From positions 1-64,000 of the forward strand of contig JAUHVL010000008.1 in NCBI GenBank assembly GCA_030425045.1: a DNA stretch of 64,000 nucleotides. Reading direction: 5' to 3'. The position numbers were made by a program, and so were the translations under genes. Of this stretch, positions 18,889 to 35,476 are shown in pieces; position 1 is the first letter of the stretch, and each line of letters starts with the position of its first letter. Origin of the DNA: a bacterium (lineage in GTDB: Bacteria > Bdellovibrionota > Bacteriovoracia > Bacteriovoracales > Bacteriovoracaceae). The notes under the pieces are model-generated. The model did no database searches and was not told where the DNA came from. It was given only the letters and a program-made list of their open reading frames with translations.

Positions 18889-18903
18889 CGCCTAAAAAAA
18901 CGT

Positions 18904-19881: not shown

Positions 19882-19959
19882 CTGAACTTTGATTCAGCTT
19901 TTTTTATGCCTGAAAACACAATTTAGAGACTTGAACGAGCGAAGCGAGTTTGCCTGGCC

Positions 19960-19989: not shown

Positions 19990-20029
19990 TTTCTTGAAAA
20001 TTAAGTGAAGAGAAAAACTTTGAAGAATC

Positions 20030-20056
20030 GAGTTCGGACAGGCGTCGCTATCGCTA
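20030..20056. repeat. Degenerate tRNA-Asp 3' end (cassette junction)
   Basis: GAGTTCG, then CGTCGCT and CGCTA, follow the order of the tRNA T-loop and acceptor 3' strand, with several changes. The next bases (TTCACTCTAAG, then TTTAATTTAAAGAATAA) match the sequence after the junctions at 23478 and 26476. This marks it as an old, decayed boundary between the IS-bearing cassette and the ankyrin cassette. A weak GATCTAC site follows at about 20098. Confidence 0.6.
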
Positions 20057-20092
20057 TTCACTCTAAGCATTTAATTTAAAGAATAAATTTTT

Positions 20093-22633
20093 TCATGATC
20101 TACTTTTAACTTTGATTATTTTTTTCCAAAAGCAAATTCCTAAAATTAATAAAAATAAAATAGATGTTATTTCCCAAAAATAACTGCCAAACAAAAGTAG
20201 TTTTTCTTCAATTTTATTTGAAAGAGAATCTTTTTTATTATCTATGTCGCTTAACTTATCAAATTTATTATTTAACGATGTATTCTTAATTATATGAGTA
20301 TATGAATTATCAAAAAATGAATTAGTATAACCAGAAAGATCATATTTATTATGAAAAAATAATTCTTTCTTATTTTTTAGGTCAACAGCCAACATTTTAT
20401 AATTTTCTAATATAATTAAATTCTCTCCAATAATTAAAAAGTTATTACTAGAGTTTCTAGCTGTGTTGTTTATTCTAAAATCTTCTGTTGAAACATTAAA
20501 AACATCTTTAAAACTTATTTTTCCGAAAACTAATTTAACACGACCCAAGAATTCACTTTCCTCATTTTTTAGTAGAAACCAATCATTATATAAATGCTTA
20601 ACAATCATGTAATCTAAACTTTTCAAATTATTTAATTCAATAAGGTTATATAACTTTCCATTGCGATCTCTACTTTCTGTAGCAAACCATTTTTTCTCAT
20701 CATCACATCTAAAAAACTGACAATTTGAATTTTCTCTCAAAGTATTTAATCGAGTTTTATCCACCCAGTTAAAGTCAAACTCTGAATGATAAGCGTTCTT
20801 GCTTACGAAACCACTTATCTTACCTTTAGAATTTATACTAAATACCTTTAAGATATAATCACATTCAGGCCCTATAGGAGGGAAAGACATTATTCTCTGT
20901 TCACACTTTGATCCATAAGCAAAAATATTATCTTCAAAGAATATTTTAGCAGAGAACAAAAAACCATTCTTTTCATAAAGGGTTAAACTATCAATTACAC
21001 TTAAATCTTTTTCTAAAGTAATTATTTTTTTATCTGTAATTACAATTAAATTTTGCCCACTACTTTTTACCTCTTTAATAAAATCATTAGGTATGTATTT
21101 CTTTACTTCATTAAATGATCTATCAAACAAGGACAAATGTTCGTTACTGTATCCTATATAATAATTATCCCATGTAATAATTTTACTAATACAATTATCT
21201 CTTCTCTTTCGATTACAATTTTCATCTTCAAAAACTAATTTTTCTATAAATTTGTTTAATTCAACGTAAAATCTAAGAGTGTAAAGATTACCTTTTGAAA
21301 CTCCAACAAGCTCAAAATCATTATTTGGAAAATTGCCTAACATAAATTCTTTTATATTTTTAGTTGCTTCAATTTTATTGCGATAGTTACTTAAGAAGAC
21401 TTTTCCTTCATCATATACTCGCTCAAGCATTTTATAATCTCTGACTTTTCCTGTTTTTATACTAAGTTTTCGAAATTCATAATTTATATCCATAAATTTA
21501 ATATAAAATTTATAAAACTCGTTTAAATCTTTAAAACTTTCTTCAGATCTTATTTCTTTAAGTTTTGTTATCTTTCTTGGGATAAATTCAGTAGTTCGGT
21601 AAGGCAAAATACTCCATTTAGGTATAAATTTTTTCTTATTTTTTCCAAAAACACCCCCAACTTTTTTTAACTTTAGATAAAAATCAAAATTACCATATTG
21701 AACTGAAACATCTAGAGGTGTAAAACCACTATTATCAGCTGAATTTAGGCTAACACCACTACTTATTAAGAAATCAATTAAATCAACCCTACCAAAAATA
21801 GCAGCATGATGAAGAGCTGTTTCGCCTAAATCATTTTTCATATTGTAATTAAGACCGTAGTTCTTTAACTCATTAAAATAAAGCTCAAACAAATCTTTAT
21901 CTTTTGTTTTAAACATTGCTTCATGAAGAATAGTGTTTCCAACGGTATCAGCAAAATTTTTTTGATGTTCTCGAAATTCTTCGTGATAACTTAAATCTAT
22001 TGGTGTATTAAAATTAAAACCTAATTTTTGATAAATAGCTATTTGTTCTGAAAATAACTTTTTTGTTAACTTAACTCTTTCCTCTTTAGAAGATCTGTTT
22101 GTTATCGGCCAATATGTGGGTAGTACCTCACGATGTATTTTTAAATATTTCTTATCTATATTTAATTTTTTTACATAGTTATAAGTTTCTTCAAATTTTC
22201 TTTGATTATTCATTTTTAATAACCAATGAAGTAAAGCCATATTGTAATTTTGAGAGTTTAAAAAGTATTTTAGAAGCTCAAAGTTCTTTACTGAAGATAT
22301 TGAAATCAGCATCCTCTGTAGATTACTATCAACAACTGATAGTTTTTGACGGATCATCTTCCTTCCATTTCTAGCTACAGGCTCATATTTTTCTTTTATT
22401 ATGAACTTTTCACCACAATACTTTTGCAGTTCTCCTTTCTTAATTTTCGTAATCCCTAAGGAATTAAATTTAAATTTTTCTCCACATTTACATACAGGTC
22501 TAGTAATACTACGAGTATCAGATACTTTTTTTACAACCTCCCACTCACAAATCATTTCACCAGAGGCACCTACAGCAGAGAGGGAAACCATTAAAAACAA
22601 AATAAATATAATAAAAGTTTTCTCAATAAACAT
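20093..22633 (-). CDS. Exported ankyrin-repeat protein with C-terminal membrane anchor
   Basis: The product is 846 residues from the ATG at 22633; a TTG five codons upstream is less likely. An N-terminal signal peptide ends near AVGASG. A short Cys-containing region (VCKCGEKF) follows. Ankyrin repeats lie around residues 230-330: GNTILHEAMFKTKDKDLF, GETALHHAAIFGRVDLIDFL and GFTPLDVSVQYGNFDFYL. A long C-terminal part of about 450 residues is rich in beta strands and may be a propeller. A single membrane helix (ITSILFLLILGICFW) and a basic tail end the protein. The gene is much richer in AT than the core genes. The function is unknown. Confidence 0.8.
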   Translation of the reverse strand: MFIEKTFIIFILFLMVSLSAVGASGEMICEWEVVKKVSDTRSITRPVCKCGEKFKFNSLGITKIKKGELQKYCGEKFIIKEKYEPVARNGRKMIRQKLSVVDSNLQRMLISISSVKNFELLKYFLNSQNYNMALLHWLLKMNNQRKFEETYNYVKKLNIDKKYLKIHREVLPTYWPITNRSSKEERVKLTKKLFSEQIAIYQKLGFNFNTPIDLSYHEEFREHQKNFADTVGNTILHEAMFKTKDKDLFELYFNELKNYGLNYNMKNDLGETALHHAAIFGRVDLIDFLISSGVSLNSADNSGFTPLDVSVQYGNFDFYLKLKKVGGVFGKNKKKFIPKWSILPYRTTEFIPRKITKLKEIRSEESFKDLNEFYKFYIKFMDINYEFRKLSIKTGKVRDYKMLERVYDEGKVFLSNYRNKIEATKNIKEFMLGNFPNNDFELVGVSKGNLYTLRFYVELNKFIEKLVFEDENCNRKRRDNCISKIITWDNYYIGYSNEHLSLFDRSFNEVKKYIPNDFIKEVKSSGQNLIVITDKKIITLEKDLSVIDSLTLYEKNGFLFSAKIFFEDNIFAYGSKCEQRIMSFPPIGPECDYILKVFSINSKGKISGFVSKNAYHSEFDFNWVDKTRLNTLRENSNCQFFRCDDEKKWFATESRDRNGKLYNLIELNNLKSLDYMIVKHLYNDWFLLKNEESEFLGRVKLVFGKISFKDVFNVSTEDFRINNTARNSSNNFLIIGENLIILENYKMLAVDLKNKKELFFHNKYDLSGYTNSFFDNSYTHIIKNTSLNNKFDKLSDIDNKKDSLSNKIEEKLLLFGSYFWEITSILFLLILGICFWKKIIKVKSRS

Positions 22634-22749
22634 AACTATATATTCCAATTGTATTATACTTAATCATACACAAATCCCTATGATATTAATTGCCTACCTA
22701 AACTCAAAAGCTGTTAGACACTCATTATCAACACAAAATGCAATTGTTT

Positions 22750-22778
22750 TTGTATGCACACTGTACATATGATATACT
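22750..22778 (+). promoter_or_regulatory. Promoter of brnTA
   Basis: TTGTAT (22750-22755) and TATACT (22773-22778) are 17 bp apart. A TGTACA dyad lies in the spacer (22762-22767), a possible BrnA contact. The predicted start of transcription is close to the brnT ATG at 22785, and no Shine-Dalgarno sequence is seen. Confidence 0.55.
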
Positions 22779-22784
22779 ATCACC

Positions 22785-23072
22785 ATGAAATTTGAGTGGG
22801 ATAAACGTAAAGAGAAAAAGAATATTGAAAAGCATGGAATCAGTTTTGATGAGGCTAAGGATCTATTCTATAGAGACGACTCCATTGTATTTGATGATCC
22901 TGAACACTCAAAAGAAGAAGATCGGTTTCTAATAGTTGGCTTTAGTATGAAGCTTAATTTATTGGTCACCTGTTTTTGTGAAAGAGATGGTGGCGATACG
23001 ATTCGAATAATATCAGCGAGAAAACTTACGAAGAAAGAACAAAAGAACTTTTCAGGAAGGTGGAAAAAATGA
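22785..23072 (+). CDS. brnT: BrnT-family toxin
   Basis: This is a RelE-fold ribonuclease toxin of a type II pair, 95 residues. The opening KFEWDKRKEKKNIEKHGISFDEAKDLF is the BrnT hallmark, followed by RFLIVGFS and the C-terminal IRIISARKLTKKEQ with the catalytic Arg region. Its stop overlaps the antitoxin start (ATGA). It lies in the ankyrin cassette, near the next junction. BrnT toxins cut mRNA and arrest growth until BrnA is restored. Confidence 0.92.
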   Translation: MKFEWDKRKEKKNIEKHGISFDEAKDLFYRDDSIVFDDPEHSKEEDRFLIVGFSMKLNLLVTCFCERDGGDTIRIISARKLTKKEQKNFSGRWKK

Positions 23073-23293
23073 AAAAAGAATATGACTTTTCCAAAATGAA
23101 AGGAAAGAAAAACCCTTATGCAAAAAAGCTCAAGAAATCAGTAACGATTAGGCTTGATGATAATGTCATTGAATATTTCAAGGCCCTTGCTGAAGAAACA
23201 GATATCCCTTATCAAACACTCATTAATCTTTTTCTTAAAGACTGTGCAACCAGTAAGAAAAAGCCTCAAACGAAATGGATTAAAGCATCTTAG
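23069..23293 (+). CDS. brnA: BrnA-family antitoxin
   Basis: This is a DNA-binding antitoxin of 74 residues from the ATG at 23069. The ribbon-helix-helix part is VTIRLDDNVIEYFKALAEETDIPYQTLINLFLKDC. It neutralises BrnT and represses the operon in known systems. The gene ends 5 bp before the 179-bp junction repeat, so the cassette boundary lies directly against the coding region. Confidence 0.9.
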   Translation: MKKEYDFSKMKGKKNPYAKKLKKSVTIRLDDNVIEYFKALAEETDIPYQTLINLFLKDCATSKKKPQTKWIKAS

Positions 23294-23298
23294 TTTAA

Positions 23299-23478
23299 GG
23301 CTCGAGTCTGCTTACTCCCGCCACTTGATCCACTTTTGACCCACCCCTTGATGAGAAAACATGAAATATGATGAGAGAAGATGAAAGTTAAAAAAAGGCA
23401 AAACTCTTGAAGTCATTCCTACTTGTTTAAATTAATCGAGCTTTATAACCCTATCGAGGGAACTCGTCGCTCCCGCCA
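23299..23478. repeat. Cassette junction repeat R1 (about 180 bp)
   Basis: This is the first full copy of the junction unit. It begins with a tRNA-like core (CTCGAGTC...ACTCCCGCC), then GATCCAC at 23327 and GACCCACC at 23338 (11 bp apart). A 20-bp tandem repeat of the type TGATGAGA..ATGAAA follows, then an A/T-rich stretch, and the unit ends in CTCGTCGCTCCCGCCA, identical to the tRNA-Asp 3' end. It separates the ankyrin/BrnTA cassette from the lipoprotein/hydrolase cassette. It is the most divergent of the four complete copies. Confidence 0.9.
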
Positions 23479-23484
23479 TTCACC

Positions 23485-24807
23485 CTAAGAATTTAATTTC
23501 AAAATGAAAAACTTTCTACCTGTACACTGATTAGCCTTGGTCACCAAAGGCTTTTCTTTAAAGTTTTCCAATTCATAATATCTATCTTGAAACAACCATT
23601 TGTTTTTCTCGAGGTCCCAAACTGTAAAATAACAATCAAAATTTAAATTACGCGAAAAATCGATAACTTTATTGTTTATAAAAGTCATATAAGGACTATG
23701 CAAGTGAGGAATGTCTTTTTCTTTTCTTATGTTAACTTCATATTCACTGATATTAATCTTACCGATAAATGAATCTGTAATTCTTCTATTATTTAAAGTT
23801 ATATTTTTATAAATAAAATATGAATCATCTTCCTTTGATAGCTTTTTAAATATTCGATGATCCCTTAATGAGTCTGCAAATACTTCATATCTATTCCCAA
23901 TATCGCCTAGTTTCCGAACTTCTACAACTGTGAGATATTTTCCTGTCCTAAGGTCACCAACTTTTCCAAGCGAAACCCATAATCTTAATGATTTATCTAT
24001 CCAATGACTTTTTAAGCCCGCCCAAGTATACCTTACACCAAAATCTACATCTTCTTCAGATTTTTTTACTTTTCCAGAACTTAATATTTTATACTTATAT
24101 ACTTTCGAGTTTAAAAACCTTAAGTCACCATCTACATCTCTCACCAAATTAGTATGCCTAAAGAAAATAGTATTTTTAAAATGCACAAATTCTTTTAGGG
24201 ATTCCGCTATATCATCGATAGGATAAGAATTTGCTAGTTCCACCATGGAGCTGTTTCTAAATATTAATTTTTCTTTTTTTAAAAAAATTAGATAATCGTC
24301 AGTAGCTCCGAGGTAACTACCATCTCGCTCAATATCAAATCTTTTAATTACTTTAAATAAATTGTCAAATACAATGAGATAACCTTCAACTTTCCAAAGA
24401 TAATAGCTTTTCCAATTTGTGATTTTACCAAAATGAGCAGGATAGCTTGCTTTATAATTAATTTCAGCAATTAATTCTGTTCGATACCAAGGGGCTTTAA
24501 GTAAAAAATCAAAACGTTTAAGTTGTAAGGAGTTTCTTTCTTCACTATTTTCCTGAACTAATATCTTAATTTTATTCTCAACAAGTATTTTATTTAAAAG
24601 ATAATTTCGATCTTCTTGAAGAGATTTTACAAACTTTTCTCTTTTACTAAGTTTTTTATTTGATTTTAAAACTCCTATAAACTCCTTATCCTTTATTATG
24701 CTTTTCTCTTCTAAAACATTTAAACTATTATTTTTTATTAACTCATTATTCGTAGAACACGATGAATTCATCAAATTTAATATTATTACCCATAAGAAAA
24801 GTCTCAC
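23485..24807 (-). CDS. Lipoprotein, beta-propeller-like, unknown function
   Basis: This is a predicted 440-residue lipoprotein. I start at a GTG at 24807, because GGAG lies five bases upstream and the product then begins with a signal sequence ending in the lipobox-like MNSSC. Starting further upstream would put unrelated hydrophobic residues in front. The mature part has repeating short beta-strand units with aromatic residues (YYLWKVEGYLIVFD, YAGLKSHWIDKSLRLWVSL type) and may be a propeller, as in the C-terminal half of the ankyrin protein next door. It ends 7 bp after the junction. Confidence 0.7.
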   Translation of the reverse strand: MRLFLWVIILNLMNSSCSTNNELIKNNSLNVLEEKSIIKDKEFIGVLKSNKKLSKREKFVKSLQEDRNYLLNKILVENKIKILVQENSEERNSLQLKRFDFLLKAPWYRTELIAEINYKASYPAHFGKITNWKSYYLWKVEGYLIVFDNLFKVIKRFDIERDGSYLGATDDYLIFLKKEKLIFRNSSMVELANSYPIDDIAESLKEFVHFKNTIFFRHTNLVRDVDGDLRFLNSKVYKYKILSSGKVKKSEEDVDFGVRYTWAGLKSHWIDKSLRLWVSLGKVGDLRTGKYLTVVEVRKLGDIGNRYEVFADSLRDHRIFKKLSKEDDSYFIYKNITLNNRRITDSFIGKINISEYEVNIRKEKDIPHLHSPYMTFINNKVIDFSRNLNFDCYFTVWDLEKNKWLFQDRYYELENFKEKPLVTKANQCTGRKFFILKLNS

Positions 24808-24964
24808 ACTTTCTCCAGATTCAAACTTATATATTCCAATTATACTATAGGTTATATTAAAATATAAAAACATATTTATACATAACTGGAAGAGGCGGGT
24901 AATTTTAAAAGTTAAGTTTATAAATTTTGTACCCAACAAAATCACAATTTCTGTATCACTTGCT

Positions 24965-25336
24965 ATGTTTTTAACAGCATTTGTATTTTCGTTGATTAAT
25001 AGTGCATCAATATCTTGGACTATTATTGAAATTATTTTTTACTATATTCTGTACACTTATTTGCTTCAACCCCTAAAAGAGAAAATGAATTATTCAGAGA
25101 TATGCCTTTTTGTAGTATTGCCAATACAGTTCATAACTTTTATCTTTGGATATAATTATTTTTTTATAAATGATCCTTTATACGAAACTACATGGCATAC
25201 ACCGTCCAATCCTATGACGAGATCAATTGGTATAAGAAATCTGGCATTTGAGTTTACATTAAAAAATATATCACTTTTAATAGTATCAATTTTTAATTTG
25301 TTTTTAATAATTATTTATTCTTATCTCTTTGAATAA
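24965..25336 (+). CDS. Small integral membrane protein
   Basis: This is a 123-residue protein with three or four membrane segments and no recognised domain. The ATG at 24965 lacks a good ribosome-binding site. The frame is open for another 30 or so codons upstream, and GGAAGAGG lies before an in-frame ATT near 24905, so the true start may be an unusual codon or the gene may have lost its start. It ends 11 bp before the hydrolase gene and is probably cotranscribed with it. Confidence 0.5.
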   Translation: MFLTAFVFSLINSASISWTIIEIIFYYILYTYLLQPLKEKMNYSEICLFVVLPIQFITFIFGYNYFFINDPLYETTWHTPSNPMTRSIGIRNLAFEFTLKNISLLIVSIFNLFLIIIYSYLFE

Positions 25337-25347
25337 TCCCCAAAAAA

Positions 25348-26292
25348 ATGAAAAGTAAAATAGCTATTGCGATATTAATTATATTTCTACTAACAAACTC
25401 TATCGTTTGGAATCAAACAAACTCTATGATTTTCTTTTCAAATACAACAAAACAGCGATCAAAAATTCAAAAACATAGTTTTCTTGATAAATTAAACTTG
25501 ATCATTTTTGGAATAAGTAATCCAAAACCTCATTATAAAAAAACACCAAAAGACTATAATCTGAGCTTCAAAACATTATTGATAAAAGAGAATAATATTG
25601 AATTAGAAACTTGGGTTATAGAAAATCCGAATTCAAGTAAATATATAAGTCTCTTTCACGGAGCAATGGCATCTAAGGATCACTTACTTGATGAAGCTAA
25701 AGAGTTTTATGAGCTAGGATATAATATTGTACTACCTGATTTTAGAGGTTCAGGTGGATCAAACCAAAATTACACTACTTTCGGTTATCTAGAAGCTCAC
25801 GATGTGAGGACAGTTGTTAATTATGTTATTGCCAATTTCAACCCTAGTGAGCTCATACTTTATGGTAGATCATTAGGAGCAGCTTCGATAACCAGATCGA
25901 TAAGTGAGCTTGGTGCTAAAGCTGATAAGATCATCCTAGATTCCGTTTACAAGAACCTCGAGCAAACGATAAATAACCGCTTTGATTTAATGAATCTACC
26001 TTCATTATTTTTTCCAAAGCTAATGTTGTTCTGGGCCAATAGAATCCTCCCAATAAACAGCTTTAATATGAAACCTATAGACTTTGCAAAAAATATATAT
26101 ATTCCCGTTTTGTTTTTACATGGTGAATTGGACAAGAGAGCAAAACTTGAAGATGCAAAGCTAGTTTATGATGCAATACCTTCTGAAGAAAAGAAGTTCA
26201 TTATCTTTGAGAATACAAGGCATGAACCCTTATTCGTGAAAAATAAAAAAGAATGGTTAAAAGTGATTAACAACTTTTTAGGATTTAAATAA
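25348..26292 (+). CDS. Membrane-anchored alpha/beta hydrolase
   Basis: This is a 314-residue serine hydrolase with an uncleaved N-terminal membrane anchor (residues 5-20). The catalytic triad is visible: Ser in GRSLGAAS, Asp in LHGELDKRA and His in NTRHEPL. The oxyanion region is SLFHGAMASKD, and DFRGSGGS is another family motif. It resembles the BEM46/YqkD-type hydrolases that face the periplasm. It is the last gene of its cassette and stops 5 bp before the next junction repeat. The substrate is unknown. Confidence 0.85.
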   Translation: MKSKIAIAILIIFLLTNSIVWNQTNSMIFFSNTTKQRSKIQKHSFLDKLNLIIFGISNPKPHYKKTPKDYNLSFKTLLIKENNIELETWVIENPNSSKYISLFHGAMASKDHLLDEAKEFYELGYNIVLPDFRGSGGSNQNYTTFGYLEAHDVRTVVNYVIANFNPSELILYGRSLGAASITRSISELGAKADKIILDSVYKNLEQTINNRFDLMNLPSLFFPKLMLFWANRILPINSFNMKPIDFAKNIYIPVLFLHGELDKRAKLEDAKLVYDAIPSEEKKFIIFENTRHEPLFVKNKKEWLKVINNFLGFK

Positions 26293-26297
26293 TTATT

Positions 26298-26476
26298 GTT
26301 CGAGTCGTACTCTCCCCGCCCCTTGATCCACTTTTGATCCACCTCTTGATGAGAAAACATGAAATATAATGAGAGAAGATGAAAGTTAAAGAAAAGGTAA
26401 GCTTTTGAAATCATTCCAACTTGTTAAAATTAATCAGGTTTCATAACCCTATGGAGGGAGCTCGTCGCTCCCGCCA
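26298..26476. repeat. Cassette junction repeat R2 (179 bp)
   Basis: The unit begins GTTCGAGTC, like a tRNA T-loop, then the small dyad GAGT-CGT-ACTC and CTCCCCGCC. GATCCAC sites stand at 26325 and 26336. The tandem 20-bp repeat follows, and the right end has the hairpin GGGAGC-TCGTC-GCTCCC and CGCCA. It is nearly the same as R3, with differences mainly near CCCTATGG. Confidence 0.92.
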
Positions 26477-26625
26477 TTTACTCTAAGTGTCTAATTTTAA
26501 AGAATAATTTTTATCTGTGATCCACTTTTGATCCACCTCTTGTGCAGTTTTTTAGCTCGTTGAAAAAATCGATTGGCGGGGACGGATTTACCCTAACAAA
26601 TTCAAAAAATTTTCGATGATCCACC
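26477..26625. repeat. Left end of the third large cassette: paired GATCCAC sites
   Basis: After the tRNA core the sequence runs TTTACTCTAAG, then TTTAAAGAATAA, with GATCCAC at 26519 and GATCCACC at 26530 (11 bp apart) and a third site at 26618. Between them lies GATTGGCGGG (26571-26580), also found at 33560 near another cassette end. No gene is seen from 26477 to 26809. The layout is that of arm-type recombinase binding sites flanking a core; that reading is inference. Confidence 0.7.
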
Positions 26626-26809
26626 TCTTTTTTTAAAGCTTTAAACTATCTCTTGAGAAGAAGGAGTATTGAAAAATACGACGTGCATACAGGTTACTAT
26701 ATTTAAATTAACAAACTTTAATACATTTCAAACCCAGAAACTCTCAAAGAGCACGCCGAGAGAATTCTATATTAAATTTTAATAGATACTTGAATTATTA
26801 AAAAACTAT

Positions 26810-27061
26810 TCAATCATCAGCAGAGTAGCATTCGAGATAATAAATATATTTTTCCAAATCAAACTCAATATTATATTTCTCTTTAAAATACCCAGCCTCT
26901 TTATCGGTAATTTCAAAACAATCATACATTGGGTTTTCATCATCAACAGAGAAAAGATCCTGAAGCTCTCTCAAGCATATATCCCTGAGTTCAAACTCAT
27001 CCTTAATGAAATCGTCATCTCCTTTCTCGAATACTGTTATACTTCTTTTCACTCTATACAT
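26810..27061 (-). CDS. Probable immunity protein (orphan)
   Basis: This is an 83-residue acidic protein. The pattern MYDCFEIT, a Glu/Asp-rich body and the YLECYSADD end resemble small immunity proteins found behind colicin E3-like toxin domains. Its ATG directly follows the stop of a toxin C-terminal remnant (TGA-ATG), which supports the role. The toxin itself is missing, so this would protect against the toxins of relatives. The family name is not certain. Confidence 0.6.
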   Translation of the reverse strand: MYRVKRSITVFEKGDDDFIKDEFELRDICLRELQDLFSVDDENPMYDCFEITDKEAGYFKEKYNIEFDLEKYIYYLECYSADD

Positions 27062-27166
27062 TCATGGCTCCACTCTTCTTGCAGGGTTAGCAGGCTTAGT
27101 CATAGCACCAGTATTAGCATCAAATTCCCCTAAATACTTCCCCAGAAGATAGCTCAAGCATTGTTT
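27062..27166 (-). pseudogene. C-terminal remnant of a polymorphic toxin
   Basis: Reading on the minus strand gives KYLGEFDANTG followed by TKPANPARRVEP and a stop. This tail (KHLGEFDPxTGxxTKPxxPxRxxEP in relatives) is typical of colicin E3-like ribonuclease toxin domains. Only about 34 codons remain. The upstream edge falls at the stop codon of the helicase gene in the same frame. The rest of the toxin was lost at this junction, while the immunity gene is whole. Confidence 0.6.
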
Positions 27167-29615
27167 TTAATGTCTTTGTGAAAACTCTGAGAAAATATTC
27201 ACTTGGAAAAGCAGTTGATTTGCTTTTGGACCACTATCTGTGACTATTTCATATTCCATCTTCTTGTAGACAGGAATTCTTTTTTTGAACATTTTAATTG
27301 TAAGTCCGTTATTTGCATCGAGATAGTCAAAAATTCGGACTTCCTTTTTACCTTCAAAGGGTCTATGAATTCTTCCTGCATACTGAACCATTCTTCCTTT
27401 AAATGAGACAGGCATCGTGATAAACAAAGAATCAAGAACAGGTAAATCAAAACCTTCTCCAATAAAAGATCCTGTCGAAAGTATGTAGAAAGATTCTTTC
27501 TTCTCAACACATTTTTGAATTTGTTCTAAAATTTCTTTTTTCTGCTTCTTCCCCATATCTCCAACAAGAACGAACTCTCTTGCTTTACCTTTTACAACAA
27601 GGCTCATTTTCTTTGAAATATTTGCTAAATGGCCTTTTCTTTCTGAAATAACCAAAGGATGTCTGTTGTTTTCAAGTTCCTTTGATAAGTCCTCAACAAT
27701 CATTTGAGTTCGTCCTTCGTGGGCAACAATCTCATCCCAAATTTCGTGTATCTCAAGCCTCCTCTCAAGAGTCTCTGAAAATTGAAATCCCGTTTCTCGA
27801 ACAAATACTTTTTTCTCCAAGTTCTTAGCCCCAAAGTCCTCCATTTCATATCTTGTAGGGCCTAGTTGCATATGAATAATTGCTTGATGACCATCTTTTC
27901 GATATGGAGTAGCCGTTAAACCGAGAAAATATTTAGCGGGAATTTGTTTTAACACTGCTTCAAATGAGACCGCCGGAACATGGTGACATTCATCTACAAT
28001 TATTTGCCCATAACTATTTAACAGTTCTTCACTGTCCTCTAATTTTGACAAAGTTTGCAGCATCGCTACATCAACTTTTCCTTTCGGCTTTTTTCTACTT
28101 CCACCGAAAGAACCTATTTCTTTAGGGTCGATATCCAAAAACACTTTTATTCTCTCAATCCATTGCTCCATTAAAGGCTTTCGATGGACTAGAATTAGAG
28201 TAGGAACTTTTCTCTTGGCAATAAGGTTACACCCCATCACTGTTTTACCAACACCAGGAGGGGCGACAAGTACTCCTGTATCAAATCTCGAAATTTCTTT
28301 GATGGCCTTTTTCTGATCGGACCTTAGTTCTCCTTGAAATTTCGTCCTAAGCTTTTTGTGTTTTCCTCTTTCATCAAAAATATTGACGTTTGCCCCAACC
28401 TCATTTGCGATTTCGACACACTCCTCAAACTTTCCTCTTGGAAGGGACATTTCGTTGCCTAAGTTTTCGCTACAACAGATGAAGCGGGGAGTATCCCAGG
28501 TTGAAAACCTCATTCTCTGTCTCTTGTAGAACTCAGGGTTCGCAAATGTTGCTGTTCTTCTAAAAGCTCCAATCAAGAAATCAGGAATACCTTCAAAGTT
28601 AATGAAGACCTGTTCTCCAAGCCTAATATCTACGCTTCCGGTAAATTCCTCATACTTTAATCTCTTAGTGATTGAATCGAGAGCATTTTCAGTGACTTTA
28701 AGGTCAAAGTCTTCAGGAGAAAAAGTTAAGTCTTTGAGAATATTCTTAGATAAAATAGAAGTCACATCATTTGCAGAAACAACTCTGGCCTTAGCAAGCA
28801 GCCCCCATTGATCTTTAATAGGTCGAAAATCTTCATCAACAAAAAGAGTATTTCCAATGTCTCTTGCTTTTCTCTGAAGAGGGAGTGCGATCAAGTTACC
28901 AAATCCACCTTTAGGGAGAATATCTTGATTAGGAAAAAAGCGGTCGTGACTGCTTAACTTGATTTGACGACACAGACTGGAAGCTCTTACAAGAATGAGA
29001 GTCCCCAATTGTCTTGCTTTATTTGCAAGAACAGGTTCATCGAAAAATATCCAGACGTGAGCACCATTTCCAGACTTAGAAATCTCTACATAGGCCTCTA
29101 TTCCAAATTCTCTAGCGGCTTTTTTAAAAGCTAAGGCATCTTTCTTCCAAGTCGCCTTGTCAAAATCAGCTGCCAAGAAGATACAAGTGTTGTCAGGTCG
29201 AATAGCATAAGTCCCTGCAATATGTGCTCCTTGAAGATGTCCTTTTACGGAAATGTCATCCAAAGGAACAAAGGACTGATGCTGGCTCAGAACATTTTAC
29301 TTTGGGCTTATTGCAAATTGGCTTCACCCATTCGTTCGTACAGACAGGTGAATAGCCTTTCTTTCCAGTTTTCTCATTTTCCCAGAAACGAGGAAAAATA
29401 TCTTTTCTGCAACTGAAGAGTCTTTGAAATAACTGTACTTTTTCTTCTGGAGTATTAGGGGTTGGAAAATTTAGTTCACGGCCTACGAGAGGAGTTTTCA
29501 GGTTGCTACTTTTCTTGAGAGTTCCTAGTTCTTTGAGTAAAGAAGTCCTCTGAACATTGAGTTCCTCAAGCTTCTTTTCGATTTCATCAATACGGCTAGA
29601 TGAACCTGATTCCAA
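27167..29615 (-). pseudogene. TOTE-type primase-helicase, frameshifted
   Basis: This is a large protein of the TOTE conflict-system type, with an archaeo-eukaryotic primase domain followed by a superfamily 2 helicase. The first part (29256-29615, 119 codons) has a coiled coil and ENEKTGKKGYSPVCTNEWV. The second (27167-29263, 698 codons) has the primase DFD (residues 33-35), Walker A APPGVGKT, DECHH, GLTATPYRKDG and QYAGRIHRP. Near 29285 the frames join as KCSE|QHQSFVPLDD, so two bases appear to be missing, including part of a conserved Cys codon. No slippery site is seen. It is either an inactivated gene or a sequencing error. Confidence 0.8.
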
Positions 29616-29616
29616 C

Positions 29617-29913
29617 TTAGGCAGCTTTTTTCAAAGTAACATTTGGAGAAATCCCTAGAACTGTCACCACTCTCATCAAGTAATCGAGAGTTATGCTTCT
29701 GCTTGTTCCCTTCTCAATTCTACTGATAACTGATTGAGTCGTTCCTAGCATCTCAGCTAATTCCTTTTGCGAAATGGACTGTTGCTTTCGGGCCTTCACA
29801 ATAGAGGCAATGATCTTGTTTTTCGTTGAAATGAGCCAGCTATCATAGTCATCAAGTCCAAGGACTTCCTTAGAAAATGTCTTTACGTCTTTGTAAGTTT
29901 TTGTCTTGGCCAT
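29617..29913 (-). CDS. XRE-family antitoxin (HigA-like)
   Basis: This is a 98-residue helix-turn-helix protein. The HTH is ISQKELAEMLGTTQSVISRIEKGTSRSITLDYLMRV at residues 45-80. Its ATG overlaps the toxin stop by one base (TAATG), and toxin-first order is typical of HigBA-like pairs. It would repress its own operon and block the toxin. It ends one base from the start of the broken TOTE gene, so read-through into that gene is likely. Confidence 0.88.
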   Translation of the reverse strand: MAKTKTYKDVKTFSKEVLGLDDYDSWLISTKNKIIASIVKARKQQSISQKELAEMLGTTQSVISRIEKGTSRSITLDYLMRVVTVLGISPNVTLKKAA

Positions 29914-30230
29914 TATCTTATCTCCTTCAATCTTTTGAGGATTAACTTCTTTTCTTTTTCTGGCAATTTCTGAGTCTTCTTCCTAAATGCGTGAAGAATA
30001 TAGATAGCATCCTTTTTCTTCACGAAGTAGATCACTCGAAACTGTCCCTTCTTATCCTTCACTCTGATCTCAAAGAGGTTCGAGTGTATGCCTGTTAATG
30101 GTCTAACATGAGGAAGCCCTAGAGTCAGACCCAATTCTAGTTTTTCAAGAATATCCTGCAAATCTTCACGAATATCCCGTGTTTCATTCCTTAATATTTT
30201 TATAACTTGATCTACGATCTCTATCTTCAT
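29913..30230 (-). CDS. RelE/ParE-type toxin (Gp49-like)
   Basis: This is a 105-residue toxin of the phage Gp49-like (HigB) group. Characteristic parts are GLPHVRPLTGIHSNLFEIRVKDKKGQFRVIYFV, then IYILHAFRKKTQKLPEKE. It probably cuts mRNA on the ribosome. AGGGGATG lies before the ATG. A -10 like TATATT and the near-palindromic ATATCGCAAATATGC lie just upstream, a possible operator. Confidence 0.9.
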   Translation of the reverse strand: MKIEIVDQVIKILRNETRDIREDLQDILEKLELGLTLGLPHVRPLTGIHSNLFEIRVKDKKGQFRVIYFVKKKDAIYILHAFRKKTQKLPEKEKKLILKRLKEIR

Positions 30231-30557
30231 TACATCCCCTGTAACTCTATCAATATAGCATATTTGCGATATTTTGTCATGAAAGTTTTTAAAGCACTAA
30301 CTATAAGAGAGATAACAACCTGAAATCATTTATTAGTGTCGACTCTTCAAGGTTATACCTTTAAAGAAAGCCCTTCATTTGTCACACACTTATAGGATTT
30401 TTTGAAATTTTTTCGGCTTATCCATTCGACTAGCTTTTGCTGTAGAAATACTTTCCCCCTATTTTATAGATGATTGATACAAAATTTGATTTTTCTATTT
30501 TCGTCATCGTCTTGCTTTAAGTATTTTTTATATGAAGAAATTCTAAATCACTAAGGA
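30231..30557. other. Gene-free spacer between two toxin-antitoxin pairs
   Basis: I find no gene, RNA or junction repeat here. The part next to 30230 holds the likely promoter and operator of the toxin pair (near 30245-30275, minus strand). The remainder is A/T-rich, with no GATCCAC site and no tRNA-like core, so the two pairs belong to one cassette. Confidence 0.5.
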
Positions 30558-30818
30558 TTAGGCAACTTTCTGACGAGCTTCCCAAAGATCATACTCAGCC
30601 TGCATCCTCACCCACATTTCAGCCGTTGTCCCTAGTTTATCTTCCAGAATAATAGCAAAAGATGGGGAGATTCCCCTTTTCCCATTTACGATTTCATTAA
30701 TTTTTCTAGGCGAACAACCACAAAGCTTTGCTAACGTCGATTGGTTAAGCTCCATCTCGGCCATATAAATTTCGGCAAGAACTTTTCCTGGATGTAATGG
30801 TAATGGATTTTCAATCAT
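30558..30818 (-). CDS. higA: HigA antitoxin
   Basis: This is an 86-residue antitoxin of the HigA/VapI group. It opens with PLHPGKVLAEIYMAEMELNQSTLAKLCGCSPRKINEIVNGKRGISP, the classic HigA helix-turn-helix. The C-terminal part (WVRMQAEYDLWEARQ) is also typical. It follows higB after 2 bp. Confidence 0.93.
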   Translation of the reverse strand: MIENPLPLHPGKVLAEIYMAEMELNQSTLAKLCGCSPRKINEIVNGKRGISPSFAIILEDKLGTTAEMWVRMQAEYDLWEARQKVA

Positions 30819-30820
30819 AG

Positions 30821-31117
30821 CTAACCTCGATGATAATTTTCGATCTTCACCTCAGAGAATTCACCATTTTTAAACTTAAAGGTTATACACCAAGGTAATT
30901 TTATCGTGACACTCCAATATTCTTTTCGATTTCCCTTTAATTTATGAAGTCGAATAGTAGGAGGCTCACCTTTTATTTTTAAATCTTCCAATGTGCTTGT
31001 AGCATGCATAATTGTCAGTAGTGCTTTTGCTCGTAGCCATAACTCTTTAGGTAAAGACTTGGACTTATTTGTCATCCAAACGTCTTTCGCAACTTTTCCT
31101 TCAAAACTAACAATCAC
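30821..31117 (-). CDS. higB: HigB toxin
   Basis: This is a 98-residue RelE-fold toxin of the HigB killer group, with IRLHKLKGNRKEYWSVTIKLPWCITFKFKNGEFSEVKIENYH near the end. It starts at a GTG at 31117, with GGGGAG five bases upstream. It would cut mRNA in translating ribosomes. It is transcribed from a strong promoter overlapped by a dyad (31137-31168). Confidence 0.93.
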   Translation of the reverse strand: MIVSFEGKVAKDVWMTNKSKSLPKELWLRAKALLTIMHATSTLEDLKIKGEPPTIRLHKLKGNRKEYWSVTIKLPWCITFKFKNGEFSEVKIENYHRG

Positions 31118-31136
31118 AGCTTCTCCCCAAACACTA

Positions 31137-31168
31137 TTACATTATACCACATTATGTAACAAAAACAA
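31137..31168 (-). promoter_or_regulatory. higBA promoter and operator
   Basis: On the minus strand TTGTTT (plus 31163-31168) and TATAAT (plus 31141-31146) are 16 bp apart. A dyad TTACATTAT-ACCAC-ATTATGTAA (31137-31159, one mismatch) covers the -10. This is a good HigA operator candidate. Confidence 0.7.
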
Positions 31169-31191
31169 TAATGACGTGTAAATTAGATAAC

Positions 31192-31370
31192 GTTCGAGTC
31201 GAACTCTCCCCGCCCCTTGATCCACTTTTGATCCACCTCTTGATGAGAAAACATGAAATATGATGAGAGAAGATGAAAGTTAAGAAAAGGCCAAGCTTTT
31301 GAAATCATTCCAACTTGTTAAAATTAATCAGGTTTCAAAACCCCAAGGAGGGAACTCGTCGCTCCCGCCA
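31192..31370. repeat. Cassette junction repeat R3 (179 bp)
   Basis: It starts GTTCGAGTCGAACTCTCCCC. GATCCAC lies at 31219 and GATCCACC at 31230. Tandem 20-bp repeats occupy 31241-31260 and 31261-31280, and CTCGTCGCTCCCGCCA ends at 31370. It separates the helicase/higBA cassette from the Nudix cassette. The sequence after it matches that after the tRNA gene itself. Confidence 0.92.
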
Positions 31371-31502
31371 TTTACTTAAAAAATAATCCTAAAGCCTTGT
31401 TATCACAGGGCTTTTTTTTTCGCCTAAAAAAACGTGATCCACTTTGATCCACCTCTCGATACTTTTTTTATAAGCACGATTCCGTGATCCACCTTTGATC
31501 CA
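31371..31502. repeat. Duplicate of the tRNA downstream region with paired GATCCAC sites
   Basis: From 31353 to about 31449 the sequence repeats 18822-18917 almost exactly, including the terminator. Beyond the point where the IS interrupts the first copy, this one continues GATCCACC at 31446, then a second pair at 31486 and 31497. It shows what the tRNA-proximal end looked like before the IS arrived. No gene lies between 31371 and 31558. Confidence 0.85.
31391..31419 (+). terminator. Copy of the tRNA-Asp terminator
   Basis: AAGCCTTGT and ACAGGGCTT pair around a TATC loop, followed by a T-run. It differs from the copy at 18860 by one loop base and one T. Here it follows a truncated tRNA end with no functional tRNA before it. 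Confidence 0.75.
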
Positions 31503-31558
31503 AAAGAATTAGATCCCATGTCTTTATTTGTTTTCTCGCTTTAATACTAAGGCGATTA

Positions 31559-31786
31559 ATGACAATAAATCTCAGCAAGAAATACAAAAAAGCATCCTAT
31601 CCAGACTGTCTCGATGAGCTAAAACAATTGTCGGTAGTAGAAATGAAAGTCAAAAATGAAGAAATCCATGTACTCACAGAGATAAAAAAGAACGCCAAGA
31701 AGATGTTCTCCTGCTTAAAGCTAGAATTGCCAGAGAAAGTTCTTTACCAATCAAATCCAGAAGTTCAATTTGTGGGTCCGGCCTAA
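31559..31786 (+). CDS. Small hypothetical protein
   Basis: This is a 75-residue lysine-rich protein with no recognised domain. AAGG lies seven bases before the ATG, which gives some support. It is the first gene of its cassette and the only one on the plus strand there. It could be the remnant of a longer gene. Confidence 0.4.
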   Translation: MTINLSKKYKKASYPDCLDELKQLSVVEMKVKNEEIHVLTEIKKNAKKMFSCLKLELPEKVLYQSNPEVQFVGPA

Positions 31787-31805
31787 CTCTTTTTAAAAAC
31801 TAAAA

Positions 31806-32066
31806 CTATACGAGAGACTCTCTGTTGTTGTTTTGTACCCTACAAGGTGTCAAACCTACGTGAACTTGGCTTTCATCAATTGCATAGTATTGAATCAGGT
31901 CTTTTGAAGTTTTTATTGAGTCGTCTAACCCTAGTAAGAGTTTATCAATCAAATTTGGAGTCTTTTGTTTCATGGCCATATATCCCCAATACGAAAATCG
32001 TAAATAGAAAAAATAATCACTAGCTTTGACGAAAAAGGCCCAAAGTTTTAGCAAAAAATTTGTCAA
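31806..32066 (-). CDS. Small hypothetical protein
   Basis: This is an 86-residue protein with an aromatic N-terminus (LWAFFVKASDYFFYLRFSYWGYMAM) and a polar C-terminal half. The first part may contact a membrane. It follows the Nudix gene on the same strand by 20 bp, so it could be the third gene of that operon. No family is recognised. Confidence 0.4.
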   Translation of the reverse strand: MTNFLLKLWAFFVKASDYFFYLRFSYWGYMAMKQKTPNLIDKLLLGLDDSIKTSKDLIQYYAIDESQVHVGLTPCRVQNNNRESLV

Positions 32067-32086
32067 ATTTGATTGGTTTCTAGATT

Positions 32087-32875
32087 TTACTTAATTCTTC
32101 TTGCAGAGTAGCCCATACTCCCTGCAAGACTTGTTTCTATCCCAGAAGTAGGCATCCAAGAAAAGTGGAAGTTCATTCCTTTATCAATACCATCTCCTTG
32201 CACAGAGTGTGACCAACTTTCCTGTACTTCAGTTGTCGGTTCAAGAAGGAAGACATGACGCCTGTTAAACTGTTCGTGTGTATTTCGGTACATTATGTAC
32301 TCATCAATTTTTTTAATGACTCTAACTTTCTCTAGTCCTGATTCTTCTTGTGCCTCACGAAGTACTGCTCTCTCAATTTCTTCTCCTGGATCCACTGAAC
32401 CAGCAGGTACTTGGAGACCAGCTTCACTCCATTTTTTGTCGTGCTCAAAAACCAGTATTTCTTTCTTGTTTCCCTTGCTCTTCAAAATGTAAGCTAAAAC
32501 TTTATCCACTAAAGGGTACTTACTATTTTCAATAGCAAAGTCATTCCAAGAAATCTTTTTCGCTTCTATATTAGATTCACAAATTATTTGGAACTTATCT
32601 TGATACAATGGATTAGTCGGAAGATCAGAAACAAGTACTTCCAATGGTTCCCTCACTACAAAACGATGCCATTCTTGTAATCCAGACGAAAAATACTTAT
32701 CAAGACCACGCTCTGTCCAAAATGAGATAGCTCCAGGATACTCTGTTCCTATTTTCGGCAGCCATGAGCCGTCAGGCTTTCCCTCTCTTCTCCTGTCATC
32801 TCTTGGGCAATGATTGTCCACAGCCTCATAGATGCCAATGCCATCACAAACAAATCTGTAGATTTTTTCACTCAC
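32087..32875 (-). CDS. Nudix hydrolase with extra N-terminal domain
   Basis: This 262-residue protein hydrolyses a nucleoside-diphosphate-linked compound. The Nudix box GSVDPGEEIERAVLREAQEESGL fits G-x5-E-x7-REUxEExGU. About 110 residues precede it, with EWHRFVVREPLEVLVSDLP, which I cannot assign. The C-terminus (SLAGSMGYSARRIK) is basic. The start overlaps the stop of the tautomerase gene (ATGA), so they act as a pair. The substrate is unknown. Confidence 0.85.
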   Translation of the reverse strand: MSEKIYRFVCDGIGIYEAVDNHCPRDDRRREGKPDGSWLPKIGTEYPGAISFWTERGLDKYFSSGLQEWHRFVVREPLEVLVSDLPTNPLYQDKFQIICESNIEAKKISWNDFAIENSKYPLVDKVLAYILKSKGNKKEILVFEHDKKWSEAGLQVPAGSVDPGEEIERAVLREAQEESGLEKVRVIKKIDEYIMYRNTHEQFNRRHVFLLEPTTEVQESWSHSVQGDGIDKGMNFHFSWMPTSGIETSLAGSMGYSARRIK

Positions 32876-33249
32876 TTTCTTACCACTCCATTTCCGGCTA
32901 TCACTCTTCCAGACTTTGCTTCTTTGTAGGTCATAAAAATATTTCCAGATATTCCAAGAGATTCACTCAAGGTGTTCGCTGCTACAGTTAATACTTTTTC
33001 AATTTCTTCTTCTGATTTCCCTTCAAAACAAGTGAGTTCACAAATTGGAGGATGAGTTTCACTTGGTTGTTCGACTGCTTCATTTTCTCCCTCAACATAG
33101 AACCCCGGAGAGATTTCTTCCCAAGTCGACCAGACTTGATGTGGTTTGCAACCATACACCTCACTGATGGCCACACAGGTTTTTTTGAGTGCTGATGTGA
33201 TTTTGCTTTTGTCTTTTTGAGGCAAGGCTCTCACGTGAAGAATTGGCAT
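32872..33249 (-). CDS. Tautomerase-superfamily protein
   Basis: This is a 125-residue protein of the 4-oxalocrotonate tautomerase/MIF type. The ATG at 33249 gives MPILHVRALP, placing the catalytic Pro directly after Met. GGAGAGAAAG precedes it, so this start is preferred over 33261. The part from VWSTWEEISPGFYVEGE to the GNGVVRK end is longer than a classical 62-residue subunit. It is coupled to the Nudix gene, suggesting a two-step detoxification or salvage cassette. Confidence 0.75.
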   Translation of the reverse strand: MPILHVRALPQKDKSKITSALKKTCVAISEVYGCKPHQVWSTWEEISPGFYVEGENEAVEQPSETHPPICELTCFEGKSEEEIEKVLTVAANTLSESLGISGNIFMTYKEAKSGRVIAGNGVVRK

Positions 33250-33349
33250 CTTTCTCTCCATTTTGATTGAAAACTTCTACCATCTCCAACAAATTTTGTC
33301 CCGATGCAATAAGATGGAAAATCGACTCTATCCTAATCTCTTAGTTTGA

Positions 33350-33426
33350 GAGTTCAGATTTTCCCCTGACATTGATCCTTTTCTACGCACTTTGACGCTA
33401 GGGTTCGTCGCTTTCCGCTCCCGCCA
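33350..33426. repeat. Shortened cassette junction
   Basis: A weak left core (GAGTTCAGATTTTCCCC) is followed by TTGATCC. After only about 40 bp comes the right core (GTTCGTCGCTTTCCGCTCCCGCCA), which has four extra bases. Most of the 179-bp unit, including the tandem 20-bp repeat, is missing. It separates the Nudix cassette from the isochorismatase cassette. Confidence 0.65.
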
Positions 33427-33590
33427 TTTTCGATTTTAATTTATAAGCAATTTAAATCATTAATTTCCAACTTTATTCAATAAGAATTTATTAACTTAAA
33501 GTGGTGGATCAAGTTGGATCTAGAACTAAATCTATTAGTATTTTTATATCTTTAAGAATGATTGGCGGGAGAAGGTAAATCCTAACAATT
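33427..33590. repeat. Left end of the isochorismatase cassette, inverted GATCCA sites
   Basis: GGTGGATC (33503-33510) and TGGATC (33515-33520) are the GATCCACC/GATCCA pair in reverse orientation. GATTGGCGGG (33560-33569), then CCTAACAA, repeats a motif at 26571. No gene is present between 33250 and 33702. Confidence 0.6.
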
Positions 33591-33702
33591 ATTAAAGAAT
33601 ACCCATTCAAACACTTATTCCCCACTATTTTTAAGTATTGAAAGAATAGCAAAAGGAGGATTTTCTTTGCTGACATCTTATAGGTATTAAAAGTATGTAT
33701 GA

Positions 33703-34347
33703 TTAATTATTAAAAAGCCTTTCAATATCTATCAAAGTACCTAGTTCTTCATAGTGTTCACGAGATAAGTCGATAGATTTTTCACCATCAACCTTCGCGA
33801 AGTCATTTAGGTAATACGGGTATATATATTCGTGGTAATTAAAGTCGGCAATTCCTTTTGGATAGGCTTTAACAGTATAACTTTCTTTCAGTGCACCGAT
33901 GATAGTTGACTGAACACAAGCACCACCATTTGCTCCCATAACGACAAGGTTATCTATTAAATATTTATCTAAGAAATTAAGTGCTTTCTTCCGATGGATC
34001 TCATTACCTAAACCATTAGAAAAAAGGTCGTTGTATTCTTTTCTTATGATAGTAAAGTTTTGGTAGCCACTAAGCTCACTCTTAAGAACGGGAAGCAAGT
34101 TACCCCAAGTTCCATACAGTGTCGCTAATATAGGAACATTGTTTTTCTTCGCTAGTCTTATAACTCTAACCTGTTCTTCAATTAACGCTTCAAGCTTCTC
34201 TTTGTTTCGTCGAGCTAATTCCCTTCCCCCCTTATAATCTATTATGAAATAGCTTTCCATATCGAGGATCAAAAGTCCCGACTTCATTGCACTAGCATTG
34301 GAACTAATAAGAAGAAAGGTAACTAAAAACAAATATACCTTAATCAT
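33703..34347 (-). CDS. Exported isochorismatase-like hydrolase
   Basis: This is a 214-residue cysteine hydrolase of the isochorismatase fold. The triad is visible: Asp in LLILDMES, Lys in IIRKEYND and Cys in GANGGACVQST. Unlike most members it has an N-terminal signal peptide (VTFLLISSNASA), so it acts in the periplasm or outside. Known relatives cleave amides or isochorismate. It is the main cargo of its cassette, with a toxin-antitoxin pair behind it. Confidence 0.82.
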   Translation of the reverse strand: MIKVYLFLVTFLLISSNASAMKSGLLILDMESYFIIDYKGGRELARRNKEKLEALIEEQVRVIRLAKKNNVPILATLYGTWGNLLPVLKSELSGYQNFTIIRKEYNDLFSNGLGNEIHRKKALNFLDKYLIDNLVVMGANGGACVQSTIIGALKESYTVKAYPKGIADFNYHEYIYPYYLNDFAKVDGEKSIDLSREHYEELGTLIDIERLFNN

Positions 34348-34483
34348 GAGTTAGTTTTTAGCATTGAACTTATTAATTGAAAATATAGATCAAATTAATC
34401 TTAAAAGAGCTTGAGGTACTCCTGCTCACATTATTTAATATAAATGAAATCTCATTTATTTATGAAATAAGTACCATTACTTA

Positions 34484-34837
34484 CTACATCGTAGATATGC
34501 TTTTTAGAAAATATTTAGGGTCACGCTCGATTAATTGCAGTAGTCTTCTCGTTGCTCCATTAGGAGAATTTTCGCCACGCTCCCAAGCTTTAACGGCACT
34601 TGGAGAACAAGCTAAAATAGAAGCAAAAACGGGCTGGCTCACCTCAAGAAGACTTTCTCTAATTTTTTTTATTTTTGTTTTTGAATACTTTGGTGGCCCA
34701 TCTGGTAATTCTAAACTTTCTGACTTTAAAGTCACCTTTCCACTCGCATGATCAAGGGCCTCTTCCGCACTGGCCAGCAGTAACTCAGAGAAGTTATCGC
34801 TTGTTACTTCATTTTTTTTTCTTTTTTTCATACTCAT
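34484..34837 (-). CDS. XRE-family antitoxin (NadS/HigA-like)
   Basis: This is a 117-residue protein from the ATG at 34837. The C-terminal helix-turn-helix is LLEVSQPVFASILACSPSAVKAWERGENSPNGATRRLLQLI, the form seen in NadS/HigA regulators. The start lies inside the 3' end of the toxin gene, a 29-bp overlap. It would bind the toxin and repress the operon. Confidence 0.85.
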   Translation of the reverse strand: MSMKKRKKNEVTSDNFSELLLASAEEALDHASGKVTLKSESLELPDGPPKYSKTKIKKIRESLLEVSQPVFASILACSPSAVKAWERGENSPNGATRRLLQLIERDPKYFLKSISTM

Positions 34838-35162
34838 GTTTAATACCCTCAACAATTTTCTTTAATACTTTCTTTTCAGCAGGAGCAAGGTCATCTTTTA
34901 TATCCTTGCTATACAGAAGCATTAAGTAGGTTGTTTCATCTTTAGCTAAATCCAAATAAAGAACTCTAAAACCGCCTCTTTTACCCTTATTTCGAGTTTT
35001 ATCACTTACCCGAAACTTTCTTATTCCACCTGTGCCAATAACGAGATCACCACGAGTAGGGTTTTCTAAAATATCGTTCTTAATCTGTCTTTCAAGCTCC
35101 TTGTCATCCTCTTGGTCAATCAGACTCTTAAAGATGCTAGTTTCAACAAACTTTCTAATCAT
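34809..35162 (-). CDS. RelE-type toxin
   Basis: This is a 117-residue toxin of the PF06296-like RelE group. I start at the ATG at 35162, which has AAAGGA eight bases upstream. Key parts are GTGGIRKFRVSDKTRNKGKRGGFRVLYLDL, followed by YLMLLYSKDIKDDLAPAEKK. The C-terminus is a run of lysines. It probably inhibits translation. Confidence 0.85.
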   Translation of the reverse strand: MIRKFVETSIFKSLIDQEDDKELERQIKNDILENPTRGDLVIGTGGIRKFRVSDKTRNKGKRGGFRVLYLDLAKDETTYLMLLYSKDIKDDLAPAEKKVLKKIVEGIKHEYEKKKKK

Positions 35163-35297
35163 ACTTATCGTCCTTTCAATGTATGACATTTAATATTATA
35201 TACTATTTAATGTCATATTTCCATATAAATCTACAACAGATCATAATTACAAATATTTATAGGTGCTACCAGTACTTATTTCGACCCTAAACTAAAG

Positions 35298-35476
35298 GTT
35301 CGGGACGTCCTCCTCCCGCCCCTTGATCCACTTTTGATCCACCCCTTGATGAGAAAGCATGAAATATAATGAGAGAAAATGAAAGTTAAGAATAAGATAA
35401 GCTACTGAAATCATTCCAACTTGTTAAATTGAATCAGGTTTCAAAACCCTATGGAGGGAGCTCGTCGCTCCCGCCA
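35298..35476. repeat. Cassette junction repeat R4 (179 bp), last of the array
   Basis: It starts GTTCGGGACGTCC, where the left-core dyad is GGAC-GTCC instead of GAGT-ACTC. GATCCAC sites lie at 35325 and 35336. The right end carries the GGGAGC/GCTCCC hairpin and the tRNA 3' end. Sequence after 35476 does not resemble any other left end, so this may be the outer boundary of the array. Confidence 0.92.

Follow-up and report, generated by a model that had tools for sequence, protein, structure and literature searches.

Tandem Integrase-less Islands Downstream of tRNA-Asp and a Probable Attachment-Site Family of Bacteriovoracia

Stacked genomic islands without an integrase are already known. CIMEs lack integration genes, keep both attL and attR, and, like the products of tandem ICE/IME accretion, are stacked at the 3'-end of a target gene (reviewed in PMC5704250). 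In Dehalococcoides, serine-recombinase islands are found in tandem at ssrA, are bounded by repeats of the 3'-end of the target gene, and in about half of the cases are without an integration module (PMC3146451). Lambda-type attachment sites that operate with wHTH factors, such as those of KplE1 (IntS/TorI, PMC2951348) and ICEMlSymR7A (IntS/RdfS, PMC11963761), have arm-type repeats, an integrase near one arm, and a small wHTH protein; KplE1 also has a tRNA core (PMC2951348). The tycheposons are tRNA-anchored cargo islands with tyrosine recombinases (PMC10872708), and integron cassette arrays are serial groups of genes with repeated recombination sites in which toxin-antitoxin pairs are common.

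In this report, we describe a locus and a family of sites that resemble these systems in part. The window (the whole stretch of DNA that was analyzed) covers the initial 64 kb of contig C2 (143 kb), from a genome of a Bacteriovorax-like bacterium that amounts to 3.97 Mb, is assembled in 91 contigs, and is 99.9% complete. It appears to contain four islands (3.0–4.9 kb) arranged in tandem, none of them with an integrase, that is, non-autonomous or decayed elements of a CIME-like kind. The likeness to CIMEs is one of sequence and may not reflect descent from an ICE or IME, and the elements described here are much smaller (1.2–5 kb), occur at several tRNA genes within one bacterial family, and have a conserved P arm. 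The Dehalococcoides islands use serine recombinases at ssrA, whereas here a tyrosine integrase, arm repeats, and tRNA genes are found. Unlike the lambda-type sites, the predicted design has two pairs of arm repeats that vary by element beside a fixed block of four 10-bp repeats. In contrast to integron cassette arrays, there is no attC-type folding, no integrase within the array, and the att design is double-stranded with a tRNA core. Tycheposons, which were compared by description, differ in being described as 4–200 kb in length (PMC10872708).

What is new is not the stacking of integrase-less islands but this family, which has a conserved P arm, extends over several tRNA genes in one bacterial family, and includes small integrase-less members. 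The mobile elements of this predatory lineage are little described in the literature that we found, in which there was no account of comparable arrays from Bacteriovorax or Bdellovibrio. With a site pattern of this specificity, tRNA-anchored islands can be mapped directly in the genomes of the predatory lineage, and mapping in this way also catches the integrase-less islands that ordinary searches miss.

Array of Islands Downstream of tRNA-Asp

The features of the array are collected in Table 1. The sole tRNA gene in the window is that for tRNA-Asp(GTC). Four copies of a 179-bp unit are located downstream of this gene, all on the plus strand and 81–95% identical to one another. They start where the original prediction had placed them, and their parts follow the same order in each copy, as it had also claimed. 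All four end in CTCGTCGCTCCCGCCA, which is the final 16 nt of tRNA-Asp through CCA, and this end lies within an inverted repeat, GGGA(G)-CTCGTCG-CTCCC; the original prediction that the unit ends in the true tRNA 3'-end was confirmed. A displaced tRNA 3'-end, by which a tRNA-integrated genomic island is recognized, is found at all four of the far borders. An integrase gene, which is also expected of such an island, was not found in the window, and neither was a wHTH gene. A fifth unit is present elsewhere in the same genome, on contig C1, 7.7 kb downstream of tRNA-Glu, and it ends in the final 17 nt of tRNA-Glu. No DNA similar to the array was found in plasmid and phage collections.

Table 1. 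Positions of the features of the array within the window
Feature	Position	Strand	Basis
tRNA-Asp(GTC), target gene, attB side of first junction	18763–18839	+	ARAGORN; Rfam RF00005
Element 1: IS, ankyrin-repeat protein, BrnT/BrnA toxin-antitoxin pair, unit 1	18840–23478	+	borders at tRNA 3'-ends; cargo genes
P'-side repeats of element 1 (GTGATCCACTTTGATC); truncated pair at 18904, with the IS interrupting its second repeat	18902–18917	+	sequence; match to unit repeats
IS240/IS6-type insertion sequence, ends approximate (transposase ORF 19095–19775)	18918–19881	-	Pfam DDE_Tnp_IS240; imperfect terminal inverted repeat, 12/18
Unit 1, putative attR half	23299–23478	+	sequence copies
Element 2: uncharacterized 486-aa protein, alpha/beta hydrolase, unit 2; P' repeats not visible	23479–26476	+	
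Unit 2, putative attR half	26298–26476	+	sequence copies
Element 3: DUF7683, TOTE-type primase-helicase, HTH/Gp49 and HTH/HigB toxin-antitoxin pairs, unit 3	26477–31370	+	
P'-side repeats of element 3, GATCCAC pair at 26519/26530	26517–26542	+	
Unit 3, the unit under study, putative attR half	31192–31370	+	sequence copies
tRNA-like left core of unit 3; flanks conserved, center hypervariable across four copies	31192–31214	+	15/23 match to tRNA
P-arm direct repeats GATCCAC, 11 bp apart	31219–31236	+	sequence; P/P' match; spacing survey
Four ATGA repeats in 10-bp phase: ATGAGAAAAC ATGAAATATG ATGAGAGAAG ATGAAAGTTA	31243–31282	+	
Conserved box AATCATTCCAACTTGTTAAAATTAA	31303–31327	+	
Core: tRNA-Asp 3'-end within inverted repeat, 7-bp center CTCGTCG (31355–31361)	31347–31370	+	
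Element 4: NUDIX, isochorismatase, RelE-like/HTH toxin-antitoxin pair, unit 4	31371–35476	+	
P'-side repeats of element 4, GATCCAC 10 bp apart, at 31436/31446	31435–31457	+	
Unit 4, putative attR half, last array border	35298–35476	+	sequence copies

The four elements are, in order, 4.6, 3.0, 4.9, and 4.1 kb in length. In three of them, a toxin-antitoxin pair (BrnT/BrnA, HigB/HTH, or RelE-like/HTH) is found just before the unit. The repeats that the original prediction had located within the unit are indeed there, but they also extend beyond it, since a second GATCCAC pair is found across the core. Elements 3 and 4 have full arm-type repeats on either side of the core, those of element 1 are truncated, and in element 2 none were seen on the P' side. 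No transfer gene was found among the cargo of elements 3 and 4. So far as can be judged from their sequences, elements 3 and 4 correspond to the definition of a CIME, with no integration or transfer genes and with putative attL and attR sites both retained.

The IS240-type insertion sits exactly within the second P' repeat beside tRNA-Asp, and it is a guess on our part that this insertion removed an integrase. The primase-helicase carried by element 3 (27167–29263; AEP-TOTE and ResIII domains) is probably a conflict or defense gene. Within element 4, at 33403–33429 and 33500–33525, an additional sequence that resembles the 3'-end of tRNA-Asp (GTTCGTCGCTTTCCGCTCCCGCCATTT) is followed by inverted GATCC motifs and has no unit; it is probably the relic border of an older element.

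Anatomy of the Repeated Unit

The fraction of variable columns among the four copies was determined to be 5% for the direct repeats, 7% for the ATGA block, 4% for the core, and 18% for the conserved box, compared with 42–53% for the spacers. The binding-type sites are thus conserved 5–10 times better than the spacers, and the low variability of the repeats, block, and core is what one would expect if proteins bind there. The window contains 20 occurrences of the motif GATCCAC versus 4.1 expected, and the maximum in 100 shuffled sequences was 10. The two copies were originally predicted to be exactly 11 bp apart in every unit. This is correct for three of the four units, but the second repeat of the unit at 23299 is GACCCAC. 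The tandem 20-bp repeat that had been noted at 31241–31280 is present, but it is better described as four 10-bp repeats that extend from 31243 to 31282. The conserved box was compared by eye with the IHF consensus, and no clean match was found.

The left ends of the four units agree with the 3'-region of tRNA-Asp at 18, 15, 15, and 15 of their 23 positions, a level that none of 4000 random places attained (the best had 14), and the claim of a tRNA-like left core is borne out for the array in the window. The same feature was not seen in the units of relatives, however, and is best regarded as a peculiarity of this array and not as part of the general site design. A two-core structure as a general rule was rejected, with no left core seen in other tRNA-Asp units. 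Within these 23-bp segments (beginning at 23300, 26298, 31192, and 35298), the flanks are kept and the 8-bp center is hypervariable, with 88% variable columns in the center among the four copies. A short inverted repeat (GAGT/ACTC or GGAC/GTCC) is kept in each copy by different bases.

The serial arrangement of small gene groups, several of them with toxin-antitoxin pairs and each separated from the next by a repeated site, calls to mind an integron cassette array in which the unit would be an attC-like, single-strand hairpin site for an IntI-type integrase. We consider this very improbable. The P arms fold no better than shuffled sequences (z = 0.7 to 1.3) and show no consensus pairing, the core is the 3'-end of a tRNA, and arm repeats are found on both sides of it. 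The same folding results bear on a further proposal, a conserved small RNA or peptide encoded within the unit, which the original prediction had named as its alternative and which we find even harder to credit. The strong conservation between copies and the minus-strand frames, which are often open, could be taken in its favor. Against it, no Rfam match was obtained apart from the tRNA, there is no conserved structure, and the conservation follows the repeats that are particular to each element and flank the core to the left and right. A peptide from the plus strand is unlikely because the TGA that recurs every 10 bp falls in all frames.

Units and Integrases in Related Genomes

A sequence-only model, designated R1, was built from the repeats, block, and box of 11 units, with the core left out. 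Matches to R1 were found in 61 of the 129 genomes searched. In a set of 75 loci, R1 gave 96 matches. For 30 units there is a tRNA gene on the same strand within the locus, and in 28 of these the unit is followed by 12–22 nt of the 3'-end of that very tRNA; in the other two, the match is 8 and 11 nt. This test is free of model bias because the core is outside of R1. The tRNA 3'-end in the 28 units is at a nearly fixed distance of 120–138 bp from the start of the motif. The target tRNAs are Asp, Glu, Pro, Arg, Val, and Ser, together with one that is called SeC by ARAGORN.

The spacing of the direct repeats, for which conservation across genomes had been suggested as a check, was examined in 90 distinct units (at least 7/8 identity between repeats). 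It was found to be 9, 10, or 11 bp in 10, 27, and 31 units, respectively, and other spacings were encountered 0–1 times. The sequence of the arm repeats varies by element (GATCC, GTACC, GTTCC, GGTCTG, GCTCAC, and GCACG), while the sequence of the ATGA block stays constant. VTGAR motifs 10 bp apart occur 205 times in 92 units versus 0.5 times expected, a result that is partly by construction since R1 was built from phased units. Agreement between the P' pair beside the tRNA and the pair in the unit is better within an element, with a mean score of 9.45, than between elements, with 7.07 (0 of 20,000 permutations); neither this comparison nor the spacing survey shares the bias of the VTGAR count.

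In the complete elements of relatives, a tyrosine integrase of approximately 410 amino acids (about 390–440) adjoins the tRNA gene on the P' side and on the opposite strand, 3.7–8.7 kb from the unit. An integrase gene is present within the elements at loci L115, L125, L131, L135, L147, L155, and L162. A small HTH_17 gene (winged-helix, excisionase-like) overlaps or directly precedes the integrase in 10 of the 11 cases examined; the exception is L061. The relatives that were found through the integrase carry the label Bacteriovoracia or allied names, with the single exception of a record labeled Epsilonproteobacteria. With the integrase at the other end of complete elements and matching repeats beside it, the phased direct repeats can be regarded as putative arm-type sites of a tyrosine recombinase, just as had been predicted. 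Because the integrase and the wHTH gene adjoin the tRNA, and because the repeats there match those of the unit at the far end, the unit is assigned as attR. It is very probably the half of an attachment site that contains the P arm and the core, belonging to a Bacteriovoracia family of tyrosine-integrase elements that target tRNA genes. The original proposal that the unit is a recombination site is supported, but the unit would be one half of an att site, with the crossover at its right end, and not the whole of it.

At five loci, the start of an integrase ORF, which in some cases is a fragment, lies 124–159 bp beyond the unit. This is as expected at a tandem junction where two elements meet and a full attP is formed. 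Among 140 ORFs near units, there are at least four Gp49, three HigB, three Fic, two AbiEii, and two BrnT family members, and these families do not appear among the matches listed for 140 control ORFs that were unmatched for size. These counts are no more than suggestive of an enrichment of toxin-antitoxin genes next to the units.

Proposed Recombination and Mobility of the Array

The arrangement of sites and genes is read directly from the sequences, and from it we infer binding, strand exchange, excision, and a division of labor among the proteins. By analogy with lambda-type systems, the N-terminal domain of the integrase would bind the variable repeats and the catalytic domain would bind the core, with crossover presumably within the 7 bp of CTCGTCG. 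The wHTH protein may be the recombination directionality factor that binds the conserved, 10-bp-phased ATGA block. Integration at the 3'-end of the tRNA would restore the gene and place the displaced 3'-end at the far border, and successive insertions would then stack as islands. In many cases, the element brings its own terminator after the CCA of the tRNA.

The four 10-bp repeats might instead be bound by the integrase itself or by a host DNA-bending protein. We take this as a serious possibility, somewhat short of an even chance, in that integrases can occupy several arm sites and IHF and Fis assist intasomes (PMC2951348). However, the block stays the same when the neighboring repeats change, which fits a protein conserved across elements; a wHTH gene is linked to each integrase that was checked except L061; and wHTH proteins such as BldC are described as binding with one turn of DNA per subunit (PMC11963761). 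The family offers a natural test of how the arm specificity of an integrase changes while an accessory site stays constant.

For the islands in the window to move, an integrase would have to be supplied in trans or gained through accretion. Any present mobility is conjectural, since no cognate integrase was found in the genome when GATCCAC pairs were sought beside its integrases. Pairs of GATCCAC with at most one mismatch were found only in the window array and as an isolated match in one other genome (G025), where no unit was recognized. We give an even chance to the array being a fossil, with sites that are att sites by origin, islands that are fixed, no acting integrase, and a similarity due only to common descent or duplication. 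Such an origin is consistent with the lack of integrase and wHTH genes in the array, the lack of a cognate integrase in a genome that is 99.9% complete, the IS within the tRNA-proximal repeats, and the absence of P' repeats from element 2. It is less easily reconciled with the better conservation of the binding sites than of the spacers among the four copies, with the integrases that are kept in related elements, and with the turnover of arrays between congeneric species.

This turnover is suggested by two of the longer arrays at tRNA-Glu, which have five recognized units in G083 and three in G082. These congeneric species have in common a 1.16-kb stretch that includes a unit (L171 and L164, respectively; 90% identity), and a different element is found beside the tRNA in each; it is the different neighbors of the common stretch that suggest turnover. 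The TGCTCAC repeats of these two arrays have further matches in G007, G060, G084, and G085. Whether islands reduced to cargo and one site still move is a second natural test. On a more speculative reading, which we hold to be rather unlikely, the family would constitute an integron-like platform on the tRNA genes of Bacteriovoracia. A dedicated integrase/wHTH family would act in trans on arrays of minimal islands, each consisting of cargo (often a toxin-antitoxin pair) and a site of 140–180 bp. The variable repeats would then serve to tag specificity, and the invariant 10-bp block would be the directionality switch that all of the islands share.

The genome from which the window is derived has two intact integrases of the same family on contig C61 and a broken one on C19, with weak R1 matches beside them. 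The C19 site and one of the C61 sites have a core like TCGGGTAGTTCGGGCAT and not the end of a tRNA. A second group of similar units (L157, L160, L163, L167, L169, L170, L057, and L061) also has a non-tRNA core (TCGGGTAGTTCGGGCAT or close to it), and these units sometimes occur in pairs and beside an integrase. At one tRNA-Arg locus (L127, positions 3559–3767), the element lies in the opposite orientation: the P arm adjoins the intact tRNA, and the integrase is located at the distal end.
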